Below are positions 63,445-64,000 of a stretch of 64,000 nt of DNA, piece after piece. The DNA is from Desulfovibrio sp. Its GTDB lineage: Bacteria > Desulfobacterota > Desulfovibrionia > Desulfovibrionales > Desulfovibrionaceae. Location: positions 256,529-320,528 of the forward strand of contig NZ_WASP01000008.1 in NCBI RefSeq assembly GCF_009712225.1, in the 5' to 3' direction. The notes under the pieces were generated by a model, which searched no databases, was not told where the DNA came from, and saw only the letters and a list, made by a program, of their open reading frames with translations. A program made the translations under genes and the position numbers. Each line of letters opens with the position of its first letter. Positions within the stretch are counted from its first letter, which is position 1.

Positions 63445-63480
63445 AGGCTCTTGCAGAACATCTCTGTAAGAGCCTTTTTT
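63445..63480 (+). terminator. Terminator of the tRNA cluster
   Basis: AGGCTCTTGCAGA (63445-63457) pairs with TCTGTAAGAGCCT (about 63462-63474) and is followed by a T-run. Confidence 0.85.
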
Positions 63481-63560: not shown

Positions 63561-63589
63561 TTGACTCCTCACCATTTGGGGCGTAGGTG
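63561..63589 (+). promoter_or_regulatory. Possible promoter of the M-box leader
   Basis: TTGACT at 63561-63566, 17 bases, then TAGGTG at 63584-63589. The -10 element is weak, but the position, just ahead of the riboswitch, is right. Confidence 0.4.
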
Positions 63590-63594
63590 TCTTC

Positions 63595-63745
63595 TAGCTT
63601 ATCGGTAGGCGAGGCTACCTCAGGGATATGGGTTACTGCCGCGGAGTAGTGGAGACACTATGAGAAGGCCAACAGTCGATGTCGCATAAGGCATGGACTA
63701 TGTAACTTCACCGCCCTGGGGAGCTAAAACTTGAACGATGCGAAT
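63595..63745 (+). ncRNA. M-box (ykoK) Mg2+ riboswitch
   Basis: The conserved islands of the M-box appear in order: GGTAGGCGAGGCTACC (63604-63619), TACTGCC (63634-63640), GGCCAACAG (63667-63675), GCATAAGG (63684-63691), and GAGCTAAAAC (63721-63730), followed by CGATGCGAA, which can close the first stem with ATCG at 63601. Bacillus subtilis mgtE carries the same set. The RNA folds compactly when Mg2+ is plentiful and then favours termination. The gene it controls, expected to be a Mg2+ transporter, lies to the right of the window. Confidence 0.92.
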
Positions 63746-63810
63746 GCCCCGCTTGGGGCTTTGGGTACGTCCCTGTCATCGTTTTGCGCCATGACCGGGG
63801 CGATTTTTTT
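63746..63810 (+). terminator. Riboswitch expression platform / terminator
   Basis: GCCCCG (63746-63751) can pair with CGGGGC (63796-63801), next to GTCAT/ATGAC (63775-63779 with 63791-63795), immediately before a run of seven T (63804-63810). The same GCCCC can instead pair locally with GGGGC (63755-63759). Two exclusive folds are expected of a riboswitch-controlled terminator. Confidence 0.65.
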
Positions 63811-63865
63811 ATCACAACTGGCAATTCTGCCTAAACAGGGAAATTCCCAAACTCAGAGGACAAAA

Positions 63866-63958
63866 ATGGAACCGGACAGTAGATACAGCCCAAATTCTGA
63901 TTTCGTACCGCGAAGGTGCGTGACGGAAGGGATGTTCATGTCCGTTCCGCCACGATAG
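63866..63958 (+). CDS. Putative leader peptide with MgtL-like start
   Basis: A 30-codon reading frame between the M-box terminator and the window end. AGAGGA lies five bases before the ATG. It begins Met-Glu-Pro-Asp, as does the enterobacterial MgtL leader peptide, and has five Pro (3, 9, 15, 28, 29) and four Arg codons, including Pro-Arg-Arg at 15-17 (MgtL has Pro-Arg-Arg-Arg). In MgtL the acidic/proline start destabilises the ribosome when Mg2+ is low, and its proline codons also matter. Most of the frame lies inside nested inverted repeats (63885-63985). I infer a regulatory leader; the resemblance is short and homology is not shown. Confidence 0.5.
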   Translation: MEPDSRYSPNSDFVPRRCVTEGMFMSVPPR

Positions 63959-63985
63959 CTCTGGGTTCATCAGATTATGGGCTGT
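63885..63985 (+). other. Nested inverted repeats over the leader peptide
   Basis: The outer arms 63885-63901 (ACAGCCCAAATTCTGAT) and 63969-63985 (ATCAGATTATGGGCTGT) pair at about 14 of 17 positions. Inside, CGTGACGGAA (63919-63928) pairs with TTCCGCCACG (63945-63954) at nine of ten. The left outer arm lies in codons 7-12 of the leader frame and the right arm lies after its stop, so translation would open the structure. Confidence 0.6.
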
Positions 63986-64000
63986 GCTTCCATCAGTTTT

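Follow-up and report, generated by a model that had tools for sequence, protein, structure and literature searches.

The last few hundred nucleotides of a 64,000-nt stretch of Desulfovibrio sp. DNA (hereafter the window) raise the question of whether a single transcript can consult Mg2+ twice. A sequence-only reading had proposed that an M-box riboswitch is followed here by an MgtL-like leader peptide, with a first decision made by RNA folding and a second by translation of the leader. We consider it probable that this stretch is the 5' leader of mgtA and carries two stacked controls, an M-box and then a translated-leader switch; the best reading of the second is a translation-monitoring leader of the MgtL/mgtQ kind stacked under the M-box. 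The features to which the text refers are the following:

63594..63746, forward strand: M-box aptamer (RF00380; cmscan 96.6 bits, whole model 1-169)
63734..63740, forward strand: AACGATG, the aptamer 3' end and also the antiterminator 5' strand, within an 8-bp helix
63768..63810, forward strand: intrinsic terminator of the M-box, a stem plus seven T (-17.1 kcal/mol)
63777..63783, forward strand: CATCGTT, the antiterminator 3' strand, inside the terminator and pairing with AACGATG
63855..63860, forward strand: Shine-Dalgarno (SD) sequence AGAGGA of the leader ORF, read from the sequence
63866..63958, forward strand: leader ORF from ATG to stop, 30 codons, MEPDSRYSPNSDFVPRRCVTEGMFMSVPPR; conserved in two relatives (G040 and G054), with a frame-specific purifying bias, and a member of the leader family described below
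63874..63901, forward strand: S1, running from the last part of codon 3 through codon 12 and forming the 5' arm of the long inverted repeat; it pairs with S3
63969..63991, forward strand: S3, the anti-ribosome-site strand ATCAGATTATGGGCTGTGCTTCC, whose partner is either S1 or the ribosome site of mgtA immediately past the window edge

The islands of M-box sequence seen in the letters alone proved to be a full-length RF00380 match (E 5.8e-21) that exceeds the gathering score of 44 bits, and it is the sole M-box in its own genome at E 0.001. Likewise, the T7 terminator with an alternative hairpin resolved into a terminator and an antiterminator that are mutually exclusive in this genome and in both relatives, with antiterminator helices of 8 bp (own), 11 bp (G040) and 10 bp (G054) and terminators of -17.1, -19.0 and -17.3 kcal/mol, respectively; the sequence of the terminator stem differs among the three genomes while the stem itself is kept. 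Plentiful Mg2+ would fold the M-box, allow the terminator to form and stop transcription. Aptamer, terminator and antiterminator are common to this locus and the standard M-box (the ykoK leader). The standard M-box makes a single decision, to which this locus adds a leader ORF and a second switch. To our knowledge, the enterobacterial mgtL locus carries no M-box, and RF00380 had no match in the E. coli control genome. Since four tRNA genes and then a terminator-like site (63445-63475) lie upstream, the M-box, leader and mgtA probably form a cassette driven by its own promoter; a promoter scan upstream of the cassette found none, the sole hint upstream of the M-box being TTGACT at 63561.

Past the terminator, the 30-codon frame with its own ribosome site held up as originally read, with its ATG at 63866, its stop at 63958 and AGAGGA from 63855. 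It starts MEPDS, with early acidic codons at Glu2 and Asp4, and is set in the nested inverted repeats that had been described around it: ACAGCCCAAATTCTGAT (63885-63901) faces ATCAGATTATGGGCTGT (from 63969), and the inner repeat CGTGACGGAA/TTCCGCCACG lies within the long one. A Mg2+ transporter does follow, a point that the sequence-only reading had set as a check: the mgtA start is the equivalent of window position 64020, 20 bases past the window edge, and the gene encodes a TIGR01524 magnesium-translocating P-type ATPase (1125.7 bits against a cut-off of 610.75).

We then considered whether the frame is merely incidental to a second riboswitch or a long expression platform after the M-box, that is, an RNA-only switch, which we regard as quite unlikely. 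An SD sequence before the leader start speaks against it, as does the pattern of substitution in relatives. Among 288 family genomes, RF00380 matched in six, although the genome-wide RNA searches scored 6 or 9 candidates per genome and may miss weak matches. Three of the 288, all of the same genus (own, G040 and G054), combine the M-box with a 30-aa MEPD leader and mgtA, so the search for an M-box followed by an MEPD frame in relatives succeeded in two of them; these three are also all of the same-genus genomes with a detected M-box. The relatives' leaders read MEPDSRYSPNSDFVPRRCVTEGMSMSVPPR and MEPDSRHGPRSDAPPRRRVTETKTISDPPP, start and stop are kept, and pN/pS in frame 0 was 0.07 for own-G040 and 0.63 and 0.53 against G054, whereas frames 1 and 2 gave 1.0 to 2.3 (three genomes, small counts throughout). 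The synonymous bias is thus specific to frame 0, the only frame with values clearly below 1, which argues for translation of the window leader and its two relatives.

Beyond the genus, we surveyed the best 80 of 578 confirmed MgtA matches in genome contigs, which are mostly from Bacillota; some locus labels from metagenome-assembled genomes (MAGs) may be wrong (Burkholderiales, Rikenellaceae, Holophagaceae), and mgtA starts were picked by an SD-based script. The leader pattern (SD-preceded, M[DE][ASPTG][GDEQS], 15-60 aa, at -240..-60 of mgtA) was chosen after a first look at the loci, hence the use of antisense, far-upstream, downstream and shuffled controls. It was present on the sense strand in 44 of these 80 loci, compared with 1/80 antisense, 3/77 far upstream, 0/80 downstream and 4/800 mononucleotide shuffles. 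M-boxes were detected in 33/80 (12, 13, 4 and 4 per successive 20), a count that may miss some where the contig stops near mgtA (e.g. L041, L064 and L082). The pattern occurred in 24 of the 33 M-box loci and in 20 of the 47 others, so the pairing of M-box and leader turned out to be far wider among these best 80 of 578 than had been supposed. Conversely, the fixed interval lacked the pattern in 36/80 loci, including nine of the 33 with an M-box. Three of the nine (L044, L071 and L074) have leaders that are off in length, position or letters, among them the 65-aa MEPGSSHSPDPDGRHRS... of L044, located by covariance model; no second leader was matched in the other six M-box loci (L050, L059, L066, L072, L078 and L088). 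Examples from the survey include Lactococcus cremoris (L062), with M-box, MESQSINSPEPERPQ leader and mgtA, and the leaders METGSQCGPDPDGRNRRPEP... of Lacrimispora and MESDSNSSPEPDGSRRRE... of a Holophagaceae MAG. Apart from the M-box, no Rfam match overlapped a leader element in the 80 loci. Separately, L052 carries a NiCo riboswitch (1121-1221) and no M-box match 5' of an MgtA-like gene that also has a leader, MESGSICSPEFDG..., downstream of the riboswitch. A shorter class of leader (MDSDGSPRRQR... and alike) lies 103-123 nt before mgtA at ten loci without an M-box match (L073, L077, L079, L086, L089, L092, L095, L101, L103 and L113).

The composition of these leaders bears on what the frame does. 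In 33 leaders selected for a length of at least 15 aa, codons 16-26 contained no stop in frame 0 (0/363), while the two remaining frames held 21 and 22, and an acidic codon 2 was found in 51/90 sense SD-ORFs against 3/21 antisense and 36/310 shuffled ones, bearing in mind that acidic codon 2 also served as a filter for the sets of 33 and 34 leaders. Codon 3, which lies outside the counted helix, is written with at least 12 different codons and is nonetheless NCN (Ala/Ser/Thr/Pro) in 32/33. All three observations count against an RNA-only switch, whereas codon 5, which is AGT in 19/33 leaders and TCN in none, suggests that the RNA sequence itself is also constrained, as such a switch would have it.

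A translated leader could instead sense another signal, such as a charged tRNA, the general translation rate or an antibiotic, and couple mgtA to that; we consider this unlikely. Codon 4 lacks an acidic residue in 23/33 leaders (it is Gly in 18), so the leaders do not generally follow a strict acidic-x-acidic motif; many leaders are rich in Ser and Pro, and in the mgtC operon of Salmonella ATP or charged tRNA-Pro is the signal for other leaders (PMC8092293). Set against this are the Mg2+ pump gene downstream, the enrichment of acidic codon 2, with the filter just mentioned, and the lack of any conserved run of one amino acid across the leaders, a run of codons for the regulated amino acid being the mark of a trp/his-type attenuator. 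It is very improbable that the ORF encodes a functional small protein (e.g. a pump regulator) rather than a cis-acting leader: start, stop and a length of about 30 codons do recur (27-33 codons in 23/33), but the peptide end is weakly conserved, with C-terminal halves that diverge freely, codons 4-9 are tied up in RNA pairing, and none of the four peptides scanned (that of the window and three relatives) had a Pfam or NCBIfam match above cut-off.

RNAalifold predicted no pairs on the MAFFT alignment A1, so the two helices that the repeats can form were assigned manually, on the basis of pairings at individual loci, and then tested with slide and shuffle controls. A1 holds 28 of 34 elements, the window's being row 1; L061, L068, L070, L082, L100 and L071 were left out as near-duplicates or hard to align. 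S1 comprises leader codons from 4 on, and the distance from the end of S3 to the mgtA start is mostly 26-48 nt (full range 18 to 104 nt in 34 loci). The S1:S3 pairing score was 29.5 for own partners, compared with 21.2 for swapped partners (1056 pairs) and 21.0 for shuffled S1, although in only 14/33 loci did it rank above 95% of the swapped pairings; for pairing between the S3 region and the SD, the score was 22.5, compared with 19.7 swapped and 17.0 shuffled. In the 28 aligned elements, 78.8% of S1:S3 cells were paired against 36-48.5% when slid, with 38 two-sided changes against 16.4 in shuffles (reached in 0/500), and 82.1% of S3:SD cells were paired against 40-49% when slid, with 12 two-sided changes against 5.7 (reached in 1/500). 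The inverted repeats to which the sequence-only reading had pointed therefore covary across the 28 elements, an outcome that an RNA-only switch would share, and the covariation of S1:S3 and S3:SD throughout the family amounts to a stem alternation of the mgtQ type. Most S3 bases are common to S1:S3 and S3:SD, and the two are therefore mutually exclusive as full helices. Judged from sequence comparison, the M-box and its switch, the ORF, the transporter, their conservation and, family-wide, both alternative helices are established.

For the direction of the switch, we infer the following. Once transcription had passed the M-box, the 30-codon leader would be translated, and S1 could pair with S3, which could instead hide the mgtA ribosome site. 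Ribosomes running through the leader would keep S1 open, so that S3 would hide the mgtA ribosome site (off); drop-off in the first codons (Met-acidic-small-acidic/Gly) at low Mg2+ would let S1 capture S3, and mgtA would be translated (on). That ribosome drop-off at low Mg2+ is the leader's signal is suggested by analogy to mgtL and mgtQ. Folding predictions for the 28 elements point the same way overall: mean predicted access of the mgtA SD was 0.35 when S1 was free, fell to 0.12 when it was masked (Wilcoxon p 5e-7) and was 0.14 when it was shuffled, and access with S1 free rather than masked was more than 0.05 higher in 16 elements, lower in one and changed by 0.05 or less in 11.

The window's own element departs from this: masking S1 moves its predicted access from 0.03 to 0.01, and G054 stays at 0.04 either way. 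In these two, the SD is predicted to be paired in both states; one half of S3 can engage S1 while the other engages the SD, or the SD pairs into mgtA. Equilibrium folding of the window's copy thus does not predict a leader-driven release of the mgtA ribosome site, and this modelled outcome is the main result against a simple switch model at the window locus. The layered control originally proposed stands for the window as an arrangement of sequence elements, while the release of the ribosome site does not follow from equilibrium folding of that copy, in which the leader may instead work kinetically during transcription, or via Rho.

The closest counterpart is Salmonella mgtQ, a uORF before mgtB whose acidic codons 2 and 5 affect mgtB translation (PMC8092293). 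Like the window leader, mgtQ is a short ORF with acidic codons near its start; alternative stems span the ORF, one of them hiding the ribosome site of a Mg2+ pump gene, and impaired ORF translation favours pump expression, as we propose here. It differs in having eight codons and in lying between mgtC and mgtB, and the accessible parts of the report describe no riboswitch there; when a ribosome sits on region 1 of mgtQ, stem 2:3 is favoured, while in the window the anti-SD would be captured by the strand of the ORF itself. Enterobacterial mgtL likewise shares a leader peptide gene before mgtA, the MEPD start, PRR and early acidic residues, which cause ribosome drop-off in MgtL, according to the part of the EttA and MgtL report available to us (PMC11282234), where the output of mgtL is Rho-dependent termination. 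The likeness of MgtL (17 aa) to the window leader is one of a few residues by eye (MEPD and PRR): MgtL has EPDP where the window leader has EPDS, without the second proline, and the distance from leader start to mgtA start is 194 nt in E. coli K-12 mgtL compared with 154 in the window.

In M. tuberculosis, an M-box controls the conserved uORF2/Rv1805A and alternative anti-SD pairing occurs, an order of M-box then conserved uORF that resembles the one here; as far as the accessible text goes (PMC12810186), that M-box governs whether the uORF itself is translated, Rho termination being involved as well, and the uORF2 peptide is described as specific to mycobacteria. The same text does not contain the terms 'MgtL', 'leader peptide' or 'destabili', and the accessible text on uORFs in ncRNA screens does not contain 'mgtA' (PMC6429828). 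No description of an M-box with an MgtL-like leader before mgtA was found among the open-access titles and abstract openings searched.

Several M-box loci carry an additional, earlier leader (e.g. MDSGNCHSCMKR..., MDPDSSHRHRSND..., MDGDSRHRTRMD...), here leader 1, followed by an intrinsic terminator. The 5' arm of this terminator (CCATCGTTT type) can pair with leader-1 codons ending mostly at 12-16 (8 to 26), and this pairing beat that of shuffled ORFs in 13 loci (mean z 3.7, combined z 13.2) that, like their terminator arms, were chosen by hand and include one (L047) without an M-box match. L059 failed (z 0.2), and L054 and L100 were weak; the test did not include L108 (a 9-codon ORF with weak pairing), nor L042 and L055, where the terminator is of this kind and no leader had been scored. 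Leader 1 is likely an attenuator in series with the M-box, in which a ribosome reaching the pairing codons would prevent the antiterminator. Leader 1 was not seen in the window. The loci with such an additional leader and its own terminator are L038, L047, L054, L061, L063, L065, L067, L072, L078, L080, L090 and L100, of which L072 and L078 have leader 1 and no recognised leader 2.

We lean towards the view that translation-monitoring Mg2+ leaders form a widespread, undescribed class beneath M-boxes and that Bacillota mgtA may pass up to three serial decisions (the M-box terminator, leader 1 with its intrinsic terminator, and leader 2 with a ribosome-site switch), Mg2+ being read by both RNA folding and ribosome stability. 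The data suggest that many bacteria control their Mg2+ pumps through leader peptides. If this view is correct, control of the MgtL/mgtQ type would be a general bacterial principle rather than an enterobacterial peculiarity, and two Mg2+ senses first met in different bacteria, one an aptamer in the RNA and the other the stability of ribosomes during translation, would act on one transcript. Why cells need both would then be testable; perhaps one reads free and the other ribosome-available Mg2+.

How the cassette reached this genus was addressed with a covariance model of the leader element (R1), which matched 3/288 family and 3/395 phylum genomes, the identical three, in searches whose stricter filters may miss weak relatives. 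A quick tree was built from 99 MgtA proteins; in it, those of the window's genome and G054 join with a support of 98 and adjoin that of Lacrimispora celerecrescens (79.7% identical; support 82) in a Bacillota-dominated group, while other same-genus MgtA in the tree are 49-59% identical and branch elsewhere. The simplest explanation is that the cassette was acquired laterally, and the leader probably came with mgtA from Bacillota.

Elsewhere in the family, mgtA was found at E 1e-200 in 50/288 genomes. Another short SD-preceded ORF lies upstream in 10 of the 11 same-genus mgtA loci read without an M-box, the exception being L034; these ORFs start MDHPPSS/R... or MSSDS... (L008-L012, L017-L019, L021 and L022). 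Eight such loci were tested for a ribosome-site hairpin, which scored above shuffles in seven, with z of about 1.8 to 7, and failed to do so at L008; purifying selection over the whole peptide was not seen by pN/pS in the MDHPPSS class. Both types were dropped as members of the leader family, their S1 pairing not being clearly above shuffles. Also within the window's family, L003 and L004 have an M-box, a MDAGPTHPSSDCEH... leader and an Nramp gene, with neither pairing clearly above shuffles at these two Nramp loci, and L005 has an M-box, MRRKDDPPPSSKGK... and a P-type ATPase gene.

Across the phylum, M-box matches occurred in 18/395 genomes, of which three are of the window's type and 15 are others (L122-L136). 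Seven of the 15 (L123-L129) have the M-box before MgtE genes (7/7 by Pfam), and in none of the eight loci L122-L129 was there a short acidic-start ORF between M-box and gene, whatever the ribosome site. All seven of L130-L136 have acidic/proline leaders (e.g. METDTQEPPGKGD..., MEIDTQEPPGNRD..., MKENDDKPPS... and MKENEGQPPS...), those of L135 and L136 having been missed by the script and identified by eye. Genes could be resolved at six of the seven, namely four P-type ATPases (L130, L133, L134 and L136) and two Nramp genes (L131 and L135), the L132 sequence being cut short with its gene unread; TIGR01524 was the best NCBIfam match in the three P-type ATPases scanned, below the whole-protein cut-off since the proteins are truncated. 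In this small sample, the leader accompanies pump and Nramp genes, not MgtE. At L122, the M-box precedes by 151 nt a gene resembling an ABC-type permease, an unusual M-box target. The acidic/proline short ORFs directly 3' of M-boxes (L130-L136, L003, L004 and L005) fall into families such as xDDxPPS and EIDTQEPPG.
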